Positions 50,463 to 62,284 of a stretch of DNA of 64,000 nucleotides are shown piece by piece. The position numbers and the translations under genes are program-made. The number at the start of each line of letters is the position of its first letter. Positions within the stretch are counted from its first letter, which is position 1. Origin of the DNA: Lachnospiraceae bacterium (GTDB lineage: Bacteria > Bacillota > Clostridia > Lachnospirales > Lachnospiraceae); contig SVEC01000001.1 of the NCBI GenBank assembly GCA_015057555.1, positions 248,001 through 312,000 on the forward strand, written 5' to 3'. The notes below the pieces were generated by a model, which was given only the letters and a program-made list of their open reading frames with translations, was not told the DNA's origin and searched no databases.

Positions 50463-50909
50463 TTGAAGAAGAGAAGACAGGAGGCTATTGTCAATTTAAT
50501 AAATAATAATAGCATTGAGACTCAGGAGGAACTCTTAAGTCTTCTTATGAAGAGTGGTTTTAACACTACGCAGGCTACAGTTTCAAGAGATATTAAGGAA
50601 CTTAATGTTACAAAGATTACCTACGATGGAAATAAGCACAAGTACGTGGTGGGTAAGCTTGTGGACAACGCAGGAGCAAAATCTTATAAGCATCTTTTGG
50701 GTAATTGTATCATTTCCATAGATTATGCAGAAAATATAGTTGTGGTAAAGACTGTTGCAGGTATGGCAATGGCAGTGGCAGCAGCTATAGATAGTCTTTC
50801 AATAGATGATATAGTGGGAAGCATTGCAGGAGATGATACCATTTTTCTAGCTATAAGACGTAGCAATCTGGTGGATAAAGTAATTGGAGATATTAAAAAA
50901 TGTTGTTAA
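50463..50909 (+). CDS. argR: Arginine repressor ArgR/AhrC
   Basis: This 148-aa hexameric repressor has an N-terminal winged helix with TTQATVSRDIKELNVTKITY as recognition region and a C-terminal arginine-binding domain containing VVVKTVAGMAMAVAAAID and GSIAGDDTIFLAIR. It controls arginine biosynthesis and catabolism; no arginine genes are in the window. TTG start at 50463 after TAGGAGG. Its end overlaps the recN start by 10 bases. Confidence 0.95.
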   Translation: MKKRRQEAIVNLINNNSIETQEELLSLLMKSGFNTTQATVSRDIKELNVTKITYDGNKHKYVVGKLVDNAGAKSYKHLLGNCIISIDYAENIVVVKTVAGMAMAVAAAIDSLSIDDIVGSIAGDDTIFLAIRRSNLVDKVIGDIKKCC

Positions 50910-52588
50910 ATATGCATATTAAAAATTTGGCTCTCATCAATGAAATTGATATTAATTTCAATGAGGGCTTAAATATACTTACAGGTGAGACAGGCGCCGG
51001 CAAGTCAATAATTATCGGTTCTTTGGGCATTTGTTTGGGAGGAAAGTTCTCCAAGGAGTTGCTTAGAGATGATACTAAGGATGGACTTGTGGAGCTAATG
51101 TTTTCTGTGGACAGTCAGGAAATTAAGGATGAGCTTTGCGCTCTTGAGGTTTATCCTGATGAAGAGGATGTTATACTTGTTTCCAGAAGAATTAATAATG
51201 CCGGCAAGACTATCAATAGAATAAATGATAATACTGTTACTATAGGTAAGCTTAAGGATGTAGCCAGCGTGCTCATAGATTTACATGCTCAGCACGAGCA
51301 GCAAACTCTTCTTAAGGTGTCTAAGCATATGGATATACTGGATAGATTCGGTGGAGAAGAGCTGTCAAAGCTTAAAGCCCAGGTAGCATTAACATATCAG
51401 CAGTATATGGAGATAAAGACAAGGCTTGAAGATGAGTCTATGGATGAGAATGAAAAAAATAAGCAGATTGATTACCTTCAGTATCAGATTGATGAGATTG
51501 AGAAGGCTAATTTAAAGCAAGGTGAGGATCAGGAACTTGAGGTACTTTATAAAAAAATAGTCAACTCTAAGGAAATTCTTACTACTGCGGATGAGATTTA
51601 TAGTTCAACCGGTTACGGTTCAAGAGATTCTGCAGCAGAACAAATTGGTCGTGCCCTAAATCAGATGAAGAGGGTTGCTGAACTTGATGAGGACTTCCAG
51701 TCATCATATGATACATTGGTTGATATAGACAGTATGTTAAATGATTTTAACAGAGAGTTGTCAGCCTATATGAAGGGTATGGAATTTGATGATGAGGAGT
51801 TTAAGACTGTGGAGTCTAGACTTGACCTAATAAATTCCTTAAAGGCAAAATATGGCAGAGAAATTACAGACATTTTCAATGTCCTTAAAAATTATAGGAC
51901 TGAATTAGAAAAGCTTGTAAGCTTTGATGAATATATTGCTAAGCTAAGAAATGAGCTGTTAAATGTGGAGCAGGAATTAAAGGCTAAGTGCAACAGACTC
52001 TCTGCTAAACGTAAGGAAGTTTCAGTTAATATGTGCAAGCAGATAAAGGATTCTTTATTTGAGCTTAACTTTATGTCTGTGGAGTTTGAGATGAGGTTCG
52101 AGGAGCTTGATAGATTTACTGCTTCAGGAACAGACAGTGCACAGTTTTACATATCAACAAATGTAGGTGAAGCTATAAGACCATTAAGTCAGGTGGCGTC
52201 TGGTGGAGAGCTTTCTAGGGTAATGCTAGCATTGAAATCTTGCATAGCTAATCTAGATGCTACACCAACCCTTGTATTTGACGAAATAGATGTGGGAATA
52301 AGTGGTAGAACAGCTCAGGCTGTGGCACAGAAGATGAGTGTAATAGGAAGAAATCATCAGCTTATATGTATAACTCACCTTCCACAGATAGCAGCTATGG
52401 CTGATACCCATTATGTAATTGAAAAAAATGTGGAAAATAATAAAACAATTACCAGCATTAAAGAACTGTCAAAGAAAGAGGAAATAAACGAAATAGCCAG
52501 ACTTTTAGGTGGAGCGGAGATAACTGAAGCAACCATTAAATCTGCAGAGGAGATGAAAGGATTGGCAGATAGAACAAAAATATACTAA
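50900..52588 (+). CDS. recN: DNA repair protein RecN
   Basis: This 562-aa SMC-like ATPase acts in double-strand break repair. Walker A is LTGETGAGKSIIIGSLGICL, the signature region is QVASGGELSRVMLALKSC, Walker B is PTLVFDEIDVGISGRTA, and ICITHLPQIAAMADTHYVI closes the head domain. Long coiled coils flank the middle (about 165-215 and 300-370). A strong terminator follows the stop. Confidence 0.96.
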   Translation: MLLNMHIKNLALINEIDINFNEGLNILTGETGAGKSIIIGSLGICLGGKFSKELLRDDTKDGLVELMFSVDSQEIKDELCALEVYPDEEDVILVSRRINNAGKTINRINDNTVTIGKLKDVASVLIDLHAQHEQQTLLKVSKHMDILDRFGGEELSKLKAQVALTYQQYMEIKTRLEDESMDENEKNKQIDYLQYQIDEIEKANLKQGEDQELEVLYKKIVNSKEILTTADEIYSSTGYGSRDSAAEQIGRALNQMKRVAELDEDFQSSYDTLVDIDSMLNDFNRELSAYMKGMEFDDEEFKTVESRLDLINSLKAKYGREITDIFNVLKNYRTELEKLVSFDEYIAKLRNELLNVEQELKAKCNRLSAKRKEVSVNMCKQIKDSLFELNFMSVEFEMRFEELDRFTASGTDSAQFYISTNVGEAIRPLSQVASGGELSRVMLALKSCIANLDATPTLVFDEIDVGISGRTAQAVAQKMSVIGRNHQLICITHLPQIAAMADTHYVIEKNVENNKTITSIKELSKKEEINEIARLLGGAEITEATIKSAEEMKGLADRTKIY

Positions 52589-52616
52589 ATTATATTTCTC
52601 TAAAGTTAAGATAATA

Positions 52617-52652
52617 AGAGTACATTCATTTTTATGAGTGTGCTCTTTTTTT
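52617..52652 (+). terminator. Rho-independent terminator after recN
   Basis: A 13-bp stem (52617-52629 with 52634-52646, two G-U pairs) with a T4 loop is followed by six T residues. It separates the vegetative argR-recN unit from spoIVB. Confidence 0.88.
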
Positions 52653-52676
52653 ATACTTATAGAAGGGAGAACTAAT

Positions 52677-53774
52677 ATGAAAAATTATAGAAGATATTTA
52701 TTTTTACTAGTGGCACTTGATATATGTCTTATATGTGCTGGACTTGTAAAGTATAATGATGCGTATGTGGAGGCCTCAGAGATAAAATACACAGTTCCTG
52801 CAAGCGATATTAATGAGGAAGATATATGGGTTGTTCCTTCTGGGGAGCCCATAGGTATATATGTAAAATCTGAGGGTGTTATGGTTATAGGTATGGGTGA
52901 GGTTACAGGAGAAGATGGAGATAAGCATTCTCCTTGTGAGGGACTTCTTTCAGCAGGAGATTACATCTTATCAATAGAAGGAGAAATGATAGATGATAAG
53001 GTGGAACTGTCAGATATGGTCAATGCTTGCATGGGGGATGCCATAGATATGACTGTTCAAAAGAAGGTTAGTAATGATTCTGGTGATATAAAGATAGAAA
53101 CTCTTTCGGTTACCCCGGTCAAGAACCAGCAGGGAGATTATATGCTGGGACTTTGGGTTAAGGATGACATATCGGGTATAGGTACTCTCACATATTACAA
53201 TGAGGCAACCTTCGGAGCTTTAGGTCACAGTATAAATGATAACGATACAGGAGAAGTTTTCGAGATATCAGATGGAGCAATATATAAAACCAATTTAATC
53301 AATATTGTAAAGTCAAATAGAAAGCTACCAGGTCGTTTAGAAGGTATGATTGATTATTCCTCCTATAATATGTTAGGTAGAGTTCAGTCAAATTCTTGCT
53401 ATGGAATTAGTGGTTATGTCACAAATGTAGGACGACAGCAGCTTAGCTATCAGGAGTATATGCCAGTTGCCCATAGAGAAGAGGTGAAGGTAGGGGAAGC
53501 TTATTTATTATCTGCTATTTCAGGTGAGCCTATGTATTATTCTGTAGAAATTACTGATATAATGCATCATCAGGCAGAAGCTAATAAGGAGCTTCAGATA
53601 AGGATTACGGACTCCAGACTTATTGACCTTACCAGCGGAATAGTTCAGGGTATGAGCGGAACACCTATAATTCAGAATGGCAAGCTTGTTGGAGCAGTTA
53701 CTCATGTGTTGGTGAATGACCCCACAAAAGGGTATGGGATCTTTATCCAAAATATGTTAAGTAATGGAAGTTAA
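52677..53774 (+). CDS. spoIVB: SpoIVB serine peptidase (S55)
   Basis: This 365-aa forespore-secreted peptidase starts sigma-K checkpoint signalling in Bacillus by cutting SpoIVFA. An N-terminal signal/anchor (YRRYLFLLVALDICLICAGL) is followed by a PDZ domain (about 75-145, with GEVTGEDGDKHSPCEGLLSA) and the S55 domain: FGALGHSI with the catalytic His, and GIVQGMSGTPIIQNGKLVGA with the catalytic Ser, then VNDPTKGYGIFI. ATG 52677 follows AAGGGAGA; the open frame from 52638 runs through the recN terminator and is not the start. The sigma-K-like factor here lacks a pro-sequence, so the downstream signalling may differ. Confidence 0.95.
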   Translation: MKNYRRYLFLLVALDICLICAGLVKYNDAYVEASEIKYTVPASDINEEDIWVVPSGEPIGIYVKSEGVMVIGMGEVTGEDGDKHSPCEGLLSAGDYILSIEGEMIDDKVELSDMVNACMGDAIDMTVQKKVSNDSGDIKIETLSVTPVKNQQGDYMLGLWVKDDISGIGTLTYYNEATFGALGHSINDNDTGEVFEISDGAIYKTNLINIVKSNRKLPGRLEGMIDYSSYNMLGRVQSNSCYGISGYVTNVGRQQLSYQEYMPVAHREEVKVGEAYLLSAISGEPMYYSVEITDIMHHQAEANKELQIRITDSRLIDLTSGIVQGMSGTPIIQNGKLVGAVTHVLVNDPTKGYGIFIQNMLSNGS

Positions 53775-53877: not shown

Positions 53878-53916
53878 ATTACGTAGGGTAAGGTATTGCT
53901 TGTTACCCTACGTAAT
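53878..53916. promoter_or_regulatory. Perfect 14-bp dyad before the MerR gene
   Basis: ATTACGTAGGGTAA (53878-53891) and TTACCCTACGTAAT (53903-53916) form a perfect inverted repeat around an 11-base spacer, ending 17 bases before the RBS of the MerR-type gene. It may be an operator for this regulator or a leader hairpin. There is no T-run, so termination is unlikely. Its arms are farther apart than in classic MerR operators. Confidence 0.55.
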
Positions 53917-53946
53917 GTGCTATATATGCCATTAGGAGGTGCAAAA

Positions 53947-54666
53947 ATGTCATTATACACTACAGGAGAAGCAGCTAAAATATGTAATGTTACTGTTCGT
54001 ACCATTCAATACTATGACAAGGAAGGAATAATACATCCTAGTGAAATCTCAGTTGGTGGAAGAAGGCTATACTCAGAGGAGGATATAAATAATCTTAAAA
54101 AGGTTTGTATGATAAAATCCCTGGGAGTGTCTTTGGCAGGCATCAAGGAGATTATGAAGGATGAGGAGGGTGAGAAGGTTATACAGGTATTTCTAGAGGA
54201 ACAGGAAAAGGAAATCGCTGAAAATATTGATAATCTCACCGAACAGGTCAAACGTATTCGAGTGGTTAGGGACAGCATAAAGGAAAGTGGCTTTCTGCCT
54301 GTAAATTCAAACGAAGACATTGAAGAACTAATGGAAGAAAAGAAGAATATAAAAAAGCTTAGGCTATTCTTACTTGCTGTGGGAATACCAGTTTCTATTA
54401 TGGAGTGGACTGGAATTATATACTGGATTATGTCAGGAAATCCCAAACTTTTTCTTGTGTTCTTACCTATTATCATAATATTAAGTGTTTTTGTATTTGT
54501 TATCTATTACGGAAGAACAAAATTTTTATGTCCACATTGTCATACTTTGTTTAAGCCAAGGGTTGTAGAGTATATTTTTGCTAATCACACTCTAAAGCTT
54601 AGGAAGCTTACATGCACCTCTTGTGGTCACAAGGGAATGTGCATAGAAAAGTACAGTATAGATTAA
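53947..54666 (+). CDS. Membrane-anchored MerR family regulator with C-terminal zinc ribbon
   Basis: This 239-aa protein has a MerR winged helix-turn-helix (about 1-70: LYTTGEAAKICNVTVRTIQY, GRRLYSEEDINNL). A coiled coil follows (about 80-140), then two membrane segments (about 144-163 and 169-190), and a C-terminal part with CPHC and CTSC, a likely zinc ribbon. Cytosolic MerR proteins normally end after the effector domain, so membrane sensing is plausible. ATG 53947 follows AGGAGGTG. It leads an operon with YxlEFG-like genes, which it probably controls in response to an envelope signal. Confidence 0.85.
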   Translation: MSLYTTGEAAKICNVTVRTIQYYDKEGIIHPSEISVGGRRLYSEEDINNLKKVCMIKSLGVSLAGIKEIMKDEEGEKVIQVFLEEQEKEIAENIDNLTEQVKRIRVVRDSIKESGFLPVNSNEDIEELMEEKKNIKKLRLFLLAVGIPVSIMEWTGIIYWIMSGNPKLFLVFLPIIIILSVFVFVIYYGRTKFLCPHCHTLFKPRVVEYIFANHTLKLRKLTCTSCGHKGMCIEKYSID

Positions 54667-54678
54667 GGAGAAATAATT

Positions 54679-54903
54679 ATGTTATTAGAAGGAATGAAAT
54701 TAGAACAACTGAAGGAGTATTTTCCGTTTTTAGTACCACTTATTATATTAGAATTTGTATTACTGTTTTTTACTATAAGACATATATTAACACACAGCAC
54801 CTATAAACGTGGAAATAGAACTATATGGATGATAGTTGCCATAGTTGGTATGAATATGATTGGGCCAATTCTATATTTTACGCTTGGAAAAGAGGATGAA
54901 TAA
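54679..54903 (+). CDS. PLDc_N domain small membrane protein (YxlE-like)
   Basis: This 74-aa protein has two membrane segments and the PLDc_N-type phrase RGNRTIWMIVAIVGMNMIGP followed by ILYFTLGK. Similar small proteins accompany ABC exporters, for example YxlE with YxlF and YxlG in the Bacillus sigY operon, where they take part in peptide resistance or immunity. RBS AAGGAG. The stop is immediately followed by the ABC ATPase start. Confidence 0.85.
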   Translation: MLLEGMKLEQLKEYFPFLVPLIILEFVLLFFTIRHILTHSTYKRGNRTIWMIVAIVGMNMIGPILYFTLGKEDE

Positions 54904-55734
54904 ATGGATAATATACTTTCTATAAAAGGGGTGTCTAAAAGCTTTGGCAGTAAGAAAATACTCGATGAATTAAGCTTTGACGTGCCTAGAAATTCTATAT
55001 ATGGTTTTGTGGGTAAAAATGGTGCTGGTAAAACCACAACCATGAAGCTTATCTTAGGTATGTACCAGGCTGATGGTGGAGAAATATATGTTAACGGGGA
55101 AAAGGTTACCTACGGTGCCAATAAAACTAACAAATATATAGGATATCTTCCAGATGTGCCGGAGTATTATGGATATATGAAACCAAAGGAATATCTAAGA
55201 CTTTGTGCAGATATAACTGGTATGCCAAAGGAAACCATGGAAGAGGAAATTGATAGAATGCTTGAGATGGTTGGCCTTAGCAAAGATAACAAGAGAATCG
55301 CGGGCTTTTCTAGAGGTATGAAGCAAAGACTTGGCATAGCCCAGGCACTGCTTTCAAAACCACAGCTACTTATATGTGACGAGCCAACCAGTGCCCTTGA
55401 CCCTGTGGGACGAAAGGAGATACTAGATATTCTAAAATCTGTAAGCCAGGAAACTACAGTCATATTTTCAACTCACATATTGTCTGACGTGGAGCGTATA
55501 TGTGACCATGTGGGAATCTTAAATGATGGTAAATTAGCTTGGCAGGGGGATAGAGATAGTCTTAAAGCCATGAGCAAGAATACTGGCTTCGAGGTGGAAT
55601 TTGAGTCAGTAGAAGAACTGAAAAAAGCTATAAAGCTTTTAGAGGAGAATAATATTGGAATTAAGAGCCTAGATATGAAAGATTCTAACCTGGAAGATTT
55701 GTTTATGGAGGTGATGAACCATGAGACAGTTTAA
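54904..55734 (+). CDS. ABC transporter ATP-binding protein (YxlF/BcrA-like)
   Basis: This 276-aa ATPase has Walker A GKNGAGKTTTMKLILG, the Q-loop region YIGYLPDVPEYYGYM, the signature FSRGMKQRLGIAQALLSKPQ, Walker B LLICDEPTSALDP and H-loop FSTHILSDVERICDH. It belongs to the drug/peptide exporter group (BcrA, YxlF). The last 14 bases overlap the permease start. Substrate unknown; antimicrobial peptide export is the usual role in this class. Confidence 0.92.
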   Translation: MDNILSIKGVSKSFGSKKILDELSFDVPRNSIYGFVGKNGAGKTTTMKLILGMYQADGGEIYVNGEKVTYGANKTNKYIGYLPDVPEYYGYMKPKEYLRLCADITGMPKETMEEEIDRMLEMVGLSKDNKRIAGFSRGMKQRLGIAQALLSKPQLLICDEPTSALDPVGRKEILDILKSVSQETTVIFSTHILSDVERICDHVGILNDGKLAWQGDRDSLKAMSKNTGFEVEFESVEELKKAIKLLEENNIGIKSLDMKDSNLEDLFMEVMNHETV

Positions 55735-56494
55735 TGCCTTTATAAAGAAAGAATGGATGGAACAAAGCAGAACCAATAAATTGCTTATATTAGGAATAGT
55801 ATCAGTGGTATTTGGCATTATGAGCCCTGCTGTGGCAAAGCTTACTCCTGTTATATTTGAAGCAATGTCACAAAGCTTATCGGATCAGGGAATATCCTCC
55901 ATACAGCTTGGTGAGGTTACTGCAATTACCTCATGGCAGCAGTTTTACAAGAACATATCGACACTAATGATAGTATTTGTTGTTATGGCTTCGGGAAACA
56001 TAACTAATGAGTACCAGAAGGGGACCTTAGTAAATATAGTTACAAAGGGTATGCCTCGTCATAAAATACTTATCTCGAAGCTTTTTGTTCAGGTGGTTAT
56101 ATGGACGTTAAGTTATTTTATAACCTTTTTTACTACCTACATTTACACAATATACTACTGGGATAACAGTGTGGTAAAGTACTGCTTTTTGGCTGCTTTA
56201 CTACCATATCTATTTGGCTTATGGCTTATAGCTTTTATATTCCTAGCCTCAACCATATCAAATAATAATATCTCAGTTTTACTATTTGTAGGAGGAGCAG
56301 TAGCACTTTGTTATCTGTTGGGAATAGCTCCAGACTTAAAAGAGTACTTGCCTACCACATTGCTTAGTGCAGGAAACTTGCTTACAGGAGCTAGTTTGCC
56401 AGAAGACTTTGTTAAGGCTACCGTGGTTACAGCTTTCACAGGTATGGTTGCTATATTAGTGTCCATTTCCACATTTAACAAGAAGAAGCTATAG
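55721..56494 (+). CDS. ABC-2 type permease (YxlG-like)
   Basis: This 257-aa permease has six membrane segments and the ABC-2 layout: an N-terminal cytosolic stretch FIKKEWMEQSRTNKLLILGI, a large outer loop, then MASGNITNEYQKGTLVNIVT before the second segment. It partners with the ATPase encoded just before. It ends the merR-led operon; a palindromic terminator follows. Confidence 0.9.
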   Translation: MRQFNAFIKKEWMEQSRTNKLLILGIVSVVFGIMSPAVAKLTPVIFEAMSQSLSDQGISSIQLGEVTAITSWQQFYKNISTLMIVFVVMASGNITNEYQKGTLVNIVTKGMPRHKILISKLFVQVVIWTLSYFITFFTTYIYTIYYWDNSVVKYCFLAALLPYLFGLWLIAFIFLASTISNNNISVLLFVGGAVALCYLLGIAPDLKEYLPTTLLSAGNLLTGASLPEDFVKATVVTAFTGMVAILVSISTFNKKKL

Positions 56495-56513
56495 ATTATA
56501 TGAGTAATAAAGA

Positions 56514-56543
56514 ATAAAACCCAGTACATGTACTGGGTTTTAT
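56514..56543. terminator. Bidirectional terminator between permease and dehydrogenase
   Basis: This is a perfect 30-base palindrome (arms 56514-56528 and 56529-56543) with AAAA on the left and TTTT on the right. It serves the two convergent genes. Confidence 0.9.
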
Positions 56544-56559
56544 CTTTATAAAATATGAT

Positions 56560-57489
56560 TTATAGGAAATCCTTGATTTGACTATGGATGATATTCATAA
56601 GGTTGGTACGAGCTTCGACACTGGCCCATCCTATATGCGGAGTGATGAGAATCTTTGACTTGTCCTGTACATTTAAGAGAGGACAAGCTGGGCTCATTGG
56701 CTCAACTGCAATAACATCAAGTCCTGCGGCAGCAATAACATTATTGTTCAGTGCATTGGTTAAAGCCACTTCATCTACTATAGGTCCACGTCCTAAGTTA
56801 AGAAATATGGCATTTGGTTTCATCTTAGAAAATGCCACCTCATTCATAAGTCCTTCTGTATACTCATTTAGAGGTGCGTGGACGGAAACTATGTCAGAAG
56901 TTGTAAGAAGAGTATCAAGATTCACTTGGTTGTAGCCTTTCTGTGCTGGTGCGCCAGAGGCAGAATAGTATATTACCTTGGCACCAAAGACCTTAGCTAT
57001 GTCGGCTACACGTCGACCAATGGCGCCAAGACCTATAATTCCCCAGGTTTTTCCTGAAATCTGGGGAAAAACCTTGTCGAAGTGGGTGAACATGGTGTCG
57101 TTAATATATTTTCCGTCTTTTACATAGCTATCGTAGTAGGCCATATGCTCAAGAAGATAAAAAAGCATAGAAAATGTATGCTGAGCTACGGATTCTGTGG
57201 AATAACCAGCCACATTGCGCCATGCTATACCACGCTTATCTAGGTATTCTTTGTCTAAATTATTGGTGCCAGTAGCAGTTACACATACCAGTTTAAGATT
57301 TTTTGCAGAACCGATTGTGGATTCATTAATGGGGATTTTGTTGATAACTAAAATATCAGCGTCAGCCACTCTGTCTGGAACCTCCTCAACTGAAGAAAAA
57401 TTATATTCCACAACCTCTCCAAAATCCTTAAAAATAGACAGATCTATATCATCACCTATTGTTTTTCTATCTAAAAATACCAGCTTCAT
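56560..57489 (-). CDS. D-2-hydroxyacid dehydrogenase (NAD-dependent)
   Basis: This 309-aa dehydrogenase of the D-isomer family acts on glycerate, glyoxylate or a related 2-ketoacid. The NAD motif is GLGAIGR in KTWGIIGLGAIGRRVADIAK, the catalytic Arg is in LGRGPIVDEVAL, Glu in VIAVEPMSPACPLL and His in ITPHIGWASVEART. TTGTNNLDKEYLDKRGI precedes the NAD domain. It is a single leftward gene, convergent with the ABC operon and divergent from spo0A, so the 355-base spacer to spo0A carries regulation for both. Substrate uncertain. Confidence 0.92.
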   Translation of the reverse strand: MKLVFLDRKTIGDDIDLSIFKDFGEVVEYNFSSVEEVPDRVADADILVINKIPINESTIGSAKNLKLVCVTATGTNNLDKEYLDKRGIAWRNVAGYSTESVAQHTFSMLFYLLEHMAYYDSYVKDGKYINDTMFTHFDKVFPQISGKTWGIIGLGAIGRRVADIAKVFGAKVIYYSASGAPAQKGYNQVNLDTLLTTSDIVSVHAPLNEYTEGLMNEVAFSKMKPNAIFLNLGRGPIVDEVALTNALNNNVIAAAGLDVIAVEPMSPACPLLNVQDKSKILITPHIGWASVEARTNLMNIIHSQIKDFL

Positions 57490-57563: not shown

Positions 57564-57721
57564 AAATTCGTCAAAATATTCATTCTCGTATATTATACAT
57601 TAGAACCTAAATGATGACAATAAATACCTATAAAATCCCTAATATGCCACAATGGGATGTAAATAGCTATGCATTATTTAGTCGAGTAAATTTGCAAATT
57701 ATGCCGTCATATTTTAGGTGT

Positions 57722-57844: not shown

Positions 57845-58639
57845 ATGAGAACGAGGGTATTGGTAATTAAGCATGATACCAAGGGCAGAGATGAATTGAA
57901 AAAGGAGCTTATGGGGAAAGCAGATATTGAGGTTTGTAAATGGATTAGTGACGGAGCAGATGGGGTAACTGCAATTAAAAGATTTAATCCAGATGTTGTA
58001 TTATTGGATTTATTATTACCTAATGTGGATGGTCTTGCAATATTAGAGGAGATAAATGCTTTGGGCCCTAAAGGTTTTAGATTTTTGATAACAGCAAACG
58101 ATAGTCAAATCAAATTTATAGAAGCTTCATATAAAAATAGGTTGGAAAATATACTTGCTGTATTAGTTGAGGAGGGTAACGAAGCCTTTAATATATATGA
58201 TGAGATAGGTAGAGTTAAGAACCTAAAAACTAAGGATATTTTACATATAAGAAAAGACGATGAGGGAAGTCTAAGAGAGAGTCAGTTAGAAATGACAGTA
58301 ACTGAAATTATTCATGAAATAGGAGTTCCGGCACACATAAAGGGATATCAATATCTTAGAAGCTCTATATTGCTTGCCGTAAGTGATATGGATATATTAA
58401 ATTCAATTACTAAGCAGCTGTATCCTTCTATTGCAAAGAAGTATGATACAACCTCTAGTAGGGTGGAAAGAGCCATAAGACATGCTATTGAGGTTGCATG
58501 GGAGAGAGGGAAAACAGATACAATAGACGAGCTGTTTGGTTATACTCTTAACAAGGGTAGACAGAAGCCAACTAATTCAGAGTTTATTGCTCTTATAGCA
58601 GATAAAATAAGATTAGATTGCAAGATGAAAAGTGCATAA
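57845..58639 (+). CDS. spo0A: Spo0A paralogue 1, with degenerate receiver domain
   Basis: This 264-aa protein has an N-terminal receiver (1 to about 120) and a C-terminal Spo0A DNA-binding domain (about 150-262: [53 protein letters not shown]), highly conserved. In the receiver the Asp that is normally phosphorylated is kept (Asp55 in [11 protein letters not shown]) and Thr83 is kept. The acidic pair that binds magnesium is replaced by Lys9-His10, and the conserved Lys before the final turn (KP in normal receivers) is missing. Phosphorylation by the usual route is therefore doubtful. RBS AAGGAGG. Confidence 0.92.
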
Positions 58640-58741
58640 AGAACAGAAATTATTTATATATTTCAAAATATGACAGATTAAAATAATTAAATATGGTAAT
58701 TTATTATAAATCTAAGATAAGTAATAAAGTAAGGAGTTAAT

Positions 58742-59542
58742 ATGAATAGTGAATTAATCAAGGTTCTTATAGCTGATAGCGATTGCGACAATATCGGCAA
58801 TCAACTACTAGAGCAAAATAAGCAGGACACAAAAGAAGGCCTTGAGATTGTATATAAAACCAGTGATGGTGAAGCGGTATATGACTTGGTATGTAAATAT
58901 AAGCCAGATATATTGCTACTTGATGTATTCGTTTCAAGTGTAGATGGTATAGAGATAGTAGAACAAATTAGGGCCAACGAGGAATTTGATAACATTAAAA
59001 TTATTTTTCTATCTACAGTAGGTTCTCCTAGAATTATTAATATGGCATTTAGCTTAGGTGCAGATTATTACATAATGAAGCCATATAGTGTAAGCATATT
59101 ATACAAGAGAATAAAGCAGCTTGCAAATAGCACCTCAGGTGTAGGCGAACATAATGAGGGATTAATTGTATATGATACCACTGAACAAAATATAGAAAAT
59201 GATGTTACAGAAATAATTAGAGAAATAGGTATACCTGCACACATAAAAGGTTATCAGTATATTAGGGAGGGCATTATAATGTCTATAAGAGACATAAATA
59301 TGCTCAATTATATTACTAAACTGTTATATCCTAGCATTGCAAAAAAATACAAAACTACATCAAGTAGTGTTGAAAGAGCAATAAGGCATGCTATAGAGGT
59401 GGCATGGGCAAGAGGTAAGATAGATGTTATTGAAAATATGTTTGGATATACTGTAAGTGCAGGTAAAGGAAAACCTACAAATTCAGAGTTTATAGCCCTT
59501 ATTGCAGATAAATTAAGAATAGAGTATAAGTTGCATGCGTAA
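58742..59542 (+). CDS. spo0A: Spo0A paralogue 2
   Basis: This 266-aa second Spo0A starts 102 bases after the first. The receiver keeps one acidic-pocket Asp (Asp12 in IADSDCD; the next position is Ser13), the phospho-acceptor Asp61 (LLLDVFVSS), Ser91 at the switch position and Lys103 (IMKP). The usual Pro after the acceptor loop is replaced by VFVSS text. The DNA-binding domain is intact ([44 protein letters not shown]), but the SRVERAIR of copy 1 and of Bacillus is SSVERAIR here, a change at the start of the recognition helix. RBS AAGGAG. Confidence 0.93.
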
Positions 59543-59598: not shown

Positions 59599-59627
59599 TT
59601 GACGAAAATCTTATCCTAAAATAAAAT
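59599..59627 (+). promoter_or_regulatory. Putative sigma-A promoter of the basic low-complexity gene
   Basis: TTGACG (59599-59604), 17 bases, TAAAAT (59622-59627), 43 bases before the GTG start. Confidence 0.65.
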
Positions 59628-59670
59628 ATAATAGTTAGATACTATTCATTTTTTGGAAGGAGATTTTAAA

Positions 59671-60270
59671 GTGGCAACCCAGGAAACTAATGAAGGCGGT
59701 TCCGGAATGAACAAGACTGGCGGTCAAAAGACCACCTATACTAGGACCTTTAGAAACGAAAACAAGCGTGAAAAAGGTGACGGCAGAAAATTTGAAAAGG
59801 GTGACAGACCTGTAAGAAATGACCGTGGTGAGAGACCTGAGCGAGGCGATAGACCACCAAGAACTGATAGAGCAGGTGGTTATCAGAAACAGGACAATGG
59901 ACAGGGAGGCAAGCCTAGATATAATAAGACAGAGGGAGGCCGTCCACCAAAATCTGACCATTACGATAAAAATAGAGGATATAATAGTCAGCCTAGATTC
60001 CCTAATAAGGATGAGGATGATGAGGATAATAGCAGAAGAAGTAAGTCATCTAGACCTAAGGAGAGCAAACCAACTGTTGCTATACCTGATAAGAATAAGG
60101 TTCAGCTTAGACTTGAGAAGGAACAGAAGTCTATGAAGAAGAAACAGTCCAAGAAGAAGGAAAGTAATAGACCTCAGCCTAAGGTTAAGAGAGCAAATAA
60201 TGTAAATTATACTAAGAACTATGCAAATGGTGATTATGATGATTATGAAGATTATTATGATGACTTCTAA
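59671..60270 (+). CDS. Basic low-complexity protein (Arg/Gly/Asp-rich, RNA-binding-like)
   Basis: This 199-aa protein appears to be disordered throughout. Residues about 20-90 are rich in Arg, Gly, Asp and Pro (RNDRGERPERGDRPPRTDRA), the middle is Asp/Glu/Ser-rich, about 140-180 is a Lys-rich stretch (KKKQSKKKESNRPQPKVKRA), and the tail is acidic and Tyr-rich (DYDDYEDYYDDF). GTG 59671 with GGAAGGAGA at 59655-59663 is the start. I do not recognise the family. The RG-type composition resembles RNA-binding or condensate-forming segments; this is inference only. Confidence 0.75.
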   Translation: MATQETNEGGSGMNKTGGQKTTYTRTFRNENKREKGDGRKFEKGDRPVRNDRGERPERGDRPPRTDRAGGYQKQDNGQGGKPRYNKTEGGRPPKSDHYDKNRGYNSQPRFPNKDEDDEDNSRRSKSSRPKESKPTVAIPDKNKVQLRLEKEQKSMKKKQSKKKESNRPQPKVKRANNVNYTKNYANGDYDDYEDYYDDF

Positions 60271-60709: not shown

Positions 60710-62284
60710 ATGGACGAGAATTATCTTGATGACCTTCTAAAAGGGGTTTCAACCGACAATCAAAAAAAGAATAGCTTTGACAAAACCGTTGATAAGGATT
60801 CGGGGATTAATGTGGATTTTGAAGATTTTGATGATATATCCTTAGATGAGCTTGATAGCTTGGATGATATTTCCTTAGATGATTTGGATCTTGAAGCGTT
60901 GGAAGATGTAGATTTTGATGATTTAGATATTATAAATCTAGATGCAGATAAGAATAAGGCATCTTTCGAATACATACCAGAGAAAGAGGACTTTAATGCT
61001 GACGATATGTTAGCTGGTATAGATGATATAGAAGATATATCTGAATTATCCGATATATCAGAATTGTCCGATATTGAGAATAACGAGCTTGAAGAAGTTG
61101 TAGAAACTCAGATTGATACTAAAAATGATGATGTCATGTTGAGTGAAGCAGATATAGCGGATTTGTTTAGTCAGATTAAAGGAGAAGAAACGGTAGATAT
61201 TCCTTCTGATATGGGAGGAGATTCAAATTCATTAGACGGTCTTGATGCTTTGTTTTCAGAGTCAGATAGTAGTTCTGGTGATGATATAGAGAGTATGGAT
61301 TTAGATGATCTATTTTCTGCTCTTGGTATAGATGAAACAGAAGGTGTTGCCACAGACAATTATGTTAGTGGTGAGGATGATTTGGATCAGCTGCTTCAAG
61401 CTACTATGGCAAGTAGCTTTGGGGATGATGAACTAGCTGATATAGAGGATATTTCTGAAAAAACAGGGAAAAAGAATAAAAATAAGTCCAAAACTAAGAT
61501 AAAGGAAAAGAAGTCTATGTCAGAAATTCTTTTTGGAGAACCTGATGAGGATGATGAAGAGGAAGAGAGACTTCTTGAGATAAAAAAGGCAGAAAAAGAA
61601 GCTAAAAAGGCCAAGAAAAAAGAAGATGCCGAGATAAAGAAAGCAGCGAAGCAAGAAAAGCTTCAGTTAAAGAATGCTGATGACGCTAAGAAAAAGAGTG
61701 AAAAGGCCGAGAAAAAAAGAGTAAAGGAAGCTGCCCTTATTGCAGAGCTAGAAGCTGAAAAGGGACAAAAGAAGGTTCCTACATCGGTAGTTATTATTGT
61801 TTTTGCTACATTTGTTGCTTTGGGCTTAATAGTAATAATTGGAGCTAAAAATTTTAATTATTCACAAGTTATTAGAAAGGCTACAGATTACTTTGAAAGA
61901 CAAAGATATAGACTTGCTTATGAAGAGGTTGCAGGTATTGAGGTTAAGGAAGAGGATGAGGAACTTCGCGATAGAATATATACAGTTATGTATGTGGAGC
62001 GACTCTATGAATCCTATGAGAACAATATGACCCTAGAAAGACCTGATAAAGCATTAGATTCATTGATTAGAGGACTAGAAAAGTATGACGAGCATTATGA
62101 TGAGGCAGTAGTTTTAGGCATAGCTAAGGATATAAAGTCTGTTAAGGAAAAGATTGTGAATGCATTATGGAATACTTATGGACTTTCAGAGGCTGCTGCC
62201 TATGATATTATGAAGCTAGATGGAATAGAGTATAGCGATGCTCTTATTAAGGCTAGTGAAAAATTAATGCCGTTAGGAGAATAA
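60710..62284 (+). CDS. Highly acidic single-pass membrane protein of unknown function
   Basis: This 524-aa protein has an extremely acidic, low-complexity half (about 1-250) with repeated DDISLDELDSLDD and ISELSDISELSD text. A Lys/Glu-rich coiled coil follows (about 280-350), then one membrane segment (about 357-380, VVIIVFATFVALGLIVIIGA), and a helical, TPR-like C-terminal domain of about 140 residues (YFERQRYRLAYEEVAGIEVK). By the charge rule the acidic half is probably cytoplasmic. I recognise no family. Its stop is one base from the hisH start, so they are co-transcribed. Confidence 0.78.
   Translation: MDENYLDDLLKGVSTDNQKKNSFDKTVDKDSGINVDFEDFDDISLDELDSLDDISLDDLDLEALEDVDFDDLDIINLDADKNKASFEYIPEKEDFNADDMLAGIDDIEDISELSDISELSDIENNELEEVVETQIDTKNDDVMLSEADIADLFSQIKGEETVDIPSDMGGDSNSLDGLDALFSESDSSSGDDIESMDLDDLFSALGIDETEGVATDNYVSGEDDLDQLLQATMASSFGDDELADIEDISEKTGKKNKNKSKTKIKEKKSMSEILFGEPDEDDEEEERLLEIKKAEKEAKKAKKKEDAEIKKAAKQEKLQLKNADDAKKKSEKAEKKRVKEAALIAELEAEKGQKKVPTSVVIIVFATFVALGLIVIIGAKNFNYSQVIRKATDYFERQRYRLAYEEVAGIEVKEEDEELRDRIYTVMYVERLYESYENNMTLERPDKALDSLIRGLEKYDEHYDEAVVLGIAKDIKSVKEKIVNALWNTYGLSEAAAYDIMKLDGIEYSDALIKASEKLMPLGE
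60843..61078 (+). repeat. Short in-frame tandem repeats coding the acidic domain
   Basis: Two kinds are visible. At about 60832-60900 a 33-base unit recurs, encoding DDISLDELDSL and DDISLDDLDLE. At 61034-61078 an 18-base unit (GATATATCTGAATTATCC-like) occurs two and a half times, encoding DISELS repeats. They indicate growth by repeat expansion. Confidence 0.6.

Follow-up and report, generated by a model that had tools for sequence, protein, structure and literature searches.

The window, by which we mean the whole 64-kb stretch of DNA analysed, contains two spo0A genes in tandem, and comparison with related genomes points to an old split of Spo0A specific to Lachnospiraceae. In the explanation that we prefer, which we judge to have an even chance of being right, both paralogues would work together at 0A boxes, and the control by phosphate would have been weakened or replaced. 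The two Spo0As would share the same boxes, and most likely either heterodimerise on them or bind side by side as neighbouring subunits. Copy 1, which has Arg211 and has lost its phosphorylation pocket, would be a DNA-competent partner with no need of phosphate; copy 2, which has Ser211 and keeps the Asp, Thr/Ser, Lys and coupling Tyr, would provide the remaining signal input or act through its abundance. Joint action is favoured because the BldM–WhiI pair of Streptomyces is the closest worked example, and because in B. subtilis the dimerisation of Spo0A needs phosphate and DNA binding by the output domain on its own does not (PMC3485338; papers are cited here by accession, from excerpts of their text).

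Gene layout of the spo0A locus

Both genes are located on the forward strand, copy 1 at 57845..58639 (264 aa) and copy 2 at 58742..59542 (266 aa), and are separated by a gap of 102 bases (58640..58741, + strand), where a scan of the window's sequence found no terminator-like site. Each protein has receiver and Spo0A_C domain matches; the output domain comprises residues 152-255 in copy 1 (58298..58609, +) and 155-258 in copy 2 (59204..59515, +). Both exceed the 200-bit cut-off of the Spo0A equivalog family (NCBIfam TIGR02875), with 233.9 bits for copy 1 and 275.3 for copy 2, in agreement with the first-pass annotation of the window, which had described two full-length tandem spo0A genes.

Based on domain matches, argR, recN and spoIVB are found upstream of the pair (50463..53774, +). 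The order argR-recN-spoIVB-spo0A is the classical spo0A neighbourhood. The spoIVB-spo0A neighbourhood is present in the window, with about 4 kb of other genes intervening. In the two relatives L123 and L124, no more than 103 and 109 bases separate the end of spoIVB from copy 1, so copy 1 occupies the ancestral place, with copy 2 after it. The genes which separate spoIVB from spo0A in the window (53896-57489) are a MerR regulator, an ABC transporter and an opposite-strand 2-hydroxyacid dehydrogenase; they are absent from this place in L123 and L124. Downstream of the pair, two genes have no Pfam match. The first (59653-60270) encodes a basic, Arg/Gly/Asp-rich low-complexity protein, and the second (60710-62284) a long protein, acidic and then Lys-rich, with a predicted-looking membrane stretch; clear counterparts of the latter also follow the pair in L123 and L124.

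Distribution of the tandem pair

Spo0A_C matches are found in 29 of the 37 genomes of the window's genus, and 27 of these 29 contain both copies on one contig and in the same order. The exceptions are G230, where copy 2 lies at a contig edge, and G214, which contains an output-only protein alone. Two of the relatives in the genus are metagenome assemblies, one of them from roe deer abomasum. In a wider survey of 334 sampled Lachnospiraceae genera, in which the best-scoring or adjacent matches were read and the genus count is therefore a lower bound, tandem pairs are present in at least 13 further genera (G040, G070, G106, G131, G151, G162, G175, G183, G188, G278, G294, G354 and G369). G275 possesses both copy types on different contigs; the number of genera possessing copy 2 is likewise a minimum. 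Among the matches listed for the copy-2 output profile in 291 genomes from the class, no copy 2 is found outside Lachnospiraceae, where the best score is 193.6 bits, compared with 223-243 bits for the eleven clearest copies 2. The divergent copies 2 of G294, G369 and G275 score 209.2-215.0 bits, a range overlapping an unread match of 213.6 bits in G311, and they were assigned by sequence because the scores alone do not separate them from that match.

Conserved residues of the receiver domains

The receivers were compared at five positions: the metal-binding acidic pair (DD1 and DD2), the acceptor Asp (D), the Thr/Ser (T) and the Lys (K). Neither copy in the window is complete. In copy 1, Lys9-His10 (57869..57874, +) replace the acidic pair, Asp55 (58007..58009, +) is retained as acceptor, and the Thr/Ser and Lys are also gone. 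Copy 2 contains Asp12-Ser13 (58775..58780, +), with the second metal-binding acid gone, the acceptor Asp61 (58922..58924, +), Ser91 and the pocket lysine Lys113 (59078..59080, +), so that DD2 is the one residue of the five that is missing; it also lacks the Pro at D+4. The residue alignment thus confirms the pocket first described for copy 1 and the altered loop after the acceptor of copy 2; the residues named for the copy 2 pocket were correct except for the lysine, which had been placed at 103.

Across 15 genera, the acceptor Asp is present in 41/41 copies 2 and the Lys in 37/41, and the second acid is present in none of the 41. All five residues are found in six of the 39 copies 1 (G162, G183, G275, G278, G294 and G354), bearing in mind that the alignment of the second half of the copy-1 receivers is uncertain outside the genus. 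In the comparison set, each of the 18 non-tandem Spo0As is complete at these five positions (18/18); this set includes two proteins from G169 and the third copy of G221, and leaves out the third copies of G106 and G188. In the residue counts, copy 1 of G229 was dropped as an output fragment, G230 is represented by copy 2 only, and the pairs of G202 and G234 are not among the rows. Concerning whole pairs, no complete receiver is found in either copy of the 24 genus pairs read (24/24), nor in nine pairs from eight other genera (G040, G070, G106, G131, G151, G175, G188 and G369, the last with two pairs). In G188, a genome which is 99% complete and contains SpoIVA, SpoIVB, SpoIIGA and SASP, copy 1 lacks all five residues and copy 2 lacks three. 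Also, the copy-1 receivers of the genus have near-invariant residues of their own (His10, Asp11, Asn60, Asn85 and Gln88, each in at least 95% of the 24).

A pseudo-receiver is defined as a receiver missing any one of DD, D, T and K, and the second acid contacts the metal directly (PMC12632262). Judged by their residues, both copies are pseudo-receivers under the definition given in that excerpt, copy 2 included because the acid that binds the metal directly is gone in all 41 cases. Copy 1 should be incapable of ordinary receiver phosphorylation, and copy 2 might be phosphorylated less efficiently. Since neither copy has a complete receiver in the window's genus, Spo0A is probably not switched there by ordinary Spo0A~P.

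An earlier proposal makes copy 2 the Spo0A that responds to phosphate; copy 1, either constitutive or gated by a ligand, would compete with it at 0A boxes or act there as a brake. As a whole we find this unlikely, although parts of it hold. In the genus, it is very improbable that copy 1 works as a normal phospho-receiver, as the acceptor is the only one of the five residues left (D kept, and DD1, DD2, T and K absent, in 24/24). Copy 2 of the genus keeps the D and the K in 26/26, the Thr/Ser in 25/26 and the Tyr at K-3 in 26/26, and for this reason some response to phosphate is plausible. On the other hand, every copy 2 lacks the second acid, the Pro at D+4 is gone in 26/26 copies 2 of the genus, and the complete receiver belongs to copy 1 in six other genera, so the proposed roles are not fixed. 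Kept residues also count against the preferred explanation, as they argue that phosphate may still matter: beside those kept in copy 2 of the genus, the acceptor Asp is retained in all 41 copies 2 and in all 24 genus copies 1.

Receiver-truncated Spo0As in other genera

At least 23 rows of the Lachnospiraceae survey have open frames of 179-226 aa. Six were analysed further (G086, G031, G003, G177, G416 and G107, at L074-L077, L136 and L137; frames of 180-221 aa). In these six most of the receiver is deleted, and a short N-terminal part leads directly into an output domain that is normal and has Arg211. Five of the N-terminal parts resemble single-copy receivers over the first strand and helix (best E-values from 9.4e-7 to 5.6e-4); the remnant in G086 has no match to these receivers but can be aligned in the same way. 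A search of the 5.0-5.5 kb around each of the six revealed no separate receiver gene. SASP is present in 6/6 of these genomes, and SpoIVA and SpoIVB in 5/5 searched. The occurrence of such proteins in genomes with sporulation markers makes a phosphate-free Spo0A more plausible in the family. A stronger form of the preferred explanation, which we regard as possible but rather doubtful, is that the pair-bearing bacteria are a clade of spore formers which do without aspartate phosphorylation of Spo0A and depend on an obligate Spo0A1-Spo0A2 heterodimer, and that other genera would have become phosphate-free by deletion of most of the receiver.

Output domains and the recognition helix

In the window the output domains of the two copies are 68% identical and the receivers 20%; the description of the output domains as near-identical was too strong. 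Position 211 (B. subtilis numbering, counted on the solved output domain 1LQ1, whose chain of 120 residues is assumed to correspond to residues 148-267) is Arg in 39/39 copies 1 and Ser in 41/41 copies 2 of 15 genera, and Arg in 17/18 non-tandem Spo0As. The corresponding residues of the window, at the start of the recognition helix, are Arg206 of copy 1 (58460..58462, +) and Ser209 of copy 2 (59366..59368, +); the Ser-for-Arg change reported for copy 2 of the window is thus shared by all copies 2. Copy 1 matches the B. subtilis helix SRVERAIRH, and copy 2 differs by the Ser at 211, with VERAIRH otherwise unchanged. Position 162 is Arg in 38/41 copies 2 and His in 39/39 copies 1; in B. subtilis Spo0A, H162R is reported to suppress the defect of A257V (PMC9195935). 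By these characters copy 2 is classified as a distinct paralogue, and the Arg211/Ser211 split together with the loss of the second acid across 15 genera is more than chance.

0A boxes near the pair and spoIIGA

The core of the 0A box is TGTCGAA (PMC3485338). The gaps between the copies in 24 congeners contain 13 perfect cores (in 13/24 congeners), where 0.2 would be expected and none of 200 shuffles gave more than 3. Within 350 bases upstream of copy 1 there are 11, where 1.0 would be expected and shuffling gave at most 4. These shuffle tests, and the one for spoIIGA below, overstate the significance because the species sampled are related. A perfect core in one or the other place is found in 20/24 congeners. 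Upstream of spoIIGA there is a perfect core in 6/15 genomes of the genus (0.41 expected, no shuffle above 3), and four of these cores lie at -94 to -96; 5/13 other genomes have one as well. The count is rough, as several SpoIIGA starts or frames are misassigned (e.g. G208 and G294). In the window itself, no perfect TGTCGAA was found in the gap or upstream of copy 1; upstream there is only a TGACGAA (57567..57573, - strand), nearer to the divergent dehydrogenase gene. Another TGACGAA lies downstream of copy 2 (59600-59606); it shares bases with a promoter-like -35 hexamer and was left uncounted; a TGNCGAA site downstream of copy 2 is present in 9/24 congeners.

Since perfect cores persist near the pair and near spoIIGA, the DNA target seems unchanged. 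This bears on a division of targets, in which each copy would form a homodimer on its own promoters and the changes at 211 and 162 would shift the DNA or polymerase preference of copy 2. Such a division would agree with the fixed Arg211Ser and the near-fixed His162Arg of copy 2, and with a within-genome identity of the output domains of just 63-69% (six genomes). It is at odds with the unchanged VERAIRH and with the persisting cores, and we consider it improbable.

Ancestry of the two copies

In output-domain trees, which are based on about 115 columns and leave many inner forks open, the tandem copies 1 all fall into one clade (SH-aLRT 96; 97/98 in a second tree) and the copies 2 all group together (88; 97/78 in the second tree, with position 211 masked). 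The second tree omitted 12 rows from six near-identical genomes, as well as the third copy of G188. The extra copy-2-like protein of G106 lies inside the copy-2 group, and a long branch at the base of this group leads to the third Spo0A of G221. Copy 1 of G275, which is not in tandem, is placed among the single Spo0As. The 25 copies 1 that have lost the pocket form one group (90/93, output tree); G151 and G175 are separate losses of single residues. The receiver tree is less tidy, with the copies 2 of G162 and G131 outside the copy-2 group; receivers evolve faster.

Because all tandem copies 1 fall into one clade and all copies 2 into another, the simplest reading of the trees is one old duplication inside Lachnospiraceae, passed on as a pair. 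The pair appears ancient: a recent, non-conserved duplication, which the first-pass annotation had named as the finding that would speak against it, is ruled out by the genus-wide and multi-genus spread and by trees which group the copies by type. Gene conversion as the source of the output likeness is not supported, as each copy clusters with its own type rather than with its partner from the same genome, and the two share only the within-genome output identity given above.

Selection and co-occurrence with sporulation genes

Both genes are under strong purifying selection. For the eight closest pairs of the genus, dN/dS is 0.044-0.096 for the receivers of copy 1, 0.032-0.215 for those of copy 2 and 0-0.031 for the outputs. 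Over 276 genus pairs, mean identity is 49% (copy 1) and 60% (copy 2) for the receivers, and 83% and 91% for the outputs. Copy 1 of G210 has no standard start codon ahead of the first receiver strand.

Sporulation markers are found in nearly all genomes searched: SpoIVA in 62/64, SpoIVB in 61/64, SpoIIGA in 29/33 and alpha/beta SASP in 49/51, counts which leave out four incomplete genus genomes without Spo0A (G223, G226, G231 and G232). The congeners G180 (100% complete) and G213 (99%) contain no Spo0A, SpoIVA, SpoIVB, SpoIIGA or SASP. The remaining gaps occur in genomes of lower completeness (SpoIVB in G200, 75%; SpoIIGA in G201, 87%, and G205, 84%). G215 (87%) and G200 have SpoIVA and no Spo0A match, and G214 (91%) has SpoIVA, SpoIVB and SASP with the output-only protein and no pair found. 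On the whole, this distribution fits a pair that serves sporulation.

Two further readings may be weighed against these data. If the pair were a relic, decaying in bacteria that no longer sporulate, the loss of the pocket, the fast divergence of the receivers and the start codon of G210 would be expected; this is contradicted by dN/dS values far below 1, by the conserved outputs, and by the sporulation markers, which occur in nearly all pair-bearing genomes and were lost with the pair in G180 and G213, and we give it almost no credence. Control by amount alone, both copies being active without phosphate and transcription of the pair setting sporulation, has a small chance of being right. The lack of a complete receiver in all 24 genus pairs, the 0A cores at the locus, which suggest self-regulation, and the receiver-truncated Spo0As elsewhere in Lachnospiraceae agree with it, but the receivers are conserved (dN/dS well below 1) and copy 2 keeps its coupling residues. 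Against joint action on 0A boxes, which we still prefer, stand the copies 2 of G162 and G131 on the receiver tree, the window's lack of a perfect core near the pair, the sporulation markers without the pair in G214 and G215, and the start codon of G210 copy 1.

Comparison with known systems

Like the Spo0A of B. subtilis and C. difficile (TIGR02875), both proteins combine a receiver with Spo0A_C and score as equivalogs, and the locus has spoIVB as neighbour and 0A-type cores nearby; unlike it, there are two genes with incomplete receivers, and Ser211 and Arg162 are found in copy 2. Most spore-formers have one Spo0A, according to an excerpt of one of two papers (PMC4890492, PMC3804516). In the same two, Clostridium thermocellum has two homologues in one organism, and deletion of one of them, Clo1313_1409, abolished sporulation; the tags Clo1313_0637 and Clo1313_1409 are far apart, so that these genes, 56% identical overall, are not in tandem. 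BldM and WhiI of Streptomyces are likewise two atypical response regulators which jointly govern the development of spores. In WhiI the Lys is missing, as is one acid of the pair, and the heterodimer runs late sporulation genes (PMC4125116). They differ in being of the NarL/FixJ type, not tandem Spo0A paralogues, and in belonging to exospore-forming actinobacteria; the heterodimer is shown there, whereas here it is inferred.

Both copies also resemble the known pseudo-receivers and atypical response regulators. Of the changes which the excerpted review (PMC12632262) lists for these, a non-acidic residue in place of the second acid is the commonest; a term search of that review gave no mention of Spo0A. 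Among the open-access titles and starts of abstracts listed, a scope which leaves subscription papers mostly outside, we found no account of a tandem Spo0A pair or of sporulation with a Spo0A that lacks a complete receiver, and there is none in the excerpts of PMC11210211, PMC3416734, PMC8340488, PMC6136694 and PMC3533761. The pair can be described as atypical response regulators, a kind already known, which occupy the place of Spo0A. In the excerpts cited, phosphorylation of Spo0A is treated as the step that launches sporulation. Bacteria with sporulation genes, an old Spo0A pair and no complete phospho-receiver would be natural test cases for the role of the receiver, and may be a second example, after BldM-WhiI, of paired atypical regulators governing spore development. 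The pair would also bear on genome-based predictions of sporulation which score Spo0A as present or absent.

Other Spo0A_C proteins

The possibility that the genomes of the genus hide a complete Spo0A elsewhere was rejected. Among the matches listed, a further full-length Spo0A in the genus is found in G221 only; this third protein (L106, G221:C148), beside the pair of that genome, has a complete receiver. G106 contains a third, copy-2-like protein with an incomplete receiver, G188 a third, divergent Spo0A_C protein (1.9e-24) with a complete receiver, and G369 a second, more degraded tandem pair (L198, G369:C9). The third Spo0A_C match of the window's genome is a 132-aa protein without a receiver. 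The short protein at L064 (G000:C22:30094-30402) is hardly more than a divergent Spo0A_C domain, and similar matches are present in G204, G205, G209, G212 and G214 (frames of 128-154 aa). Such short Spo0A_C-only proteins are found in 6/37 genomes of the genus, with or without the pair alongside.
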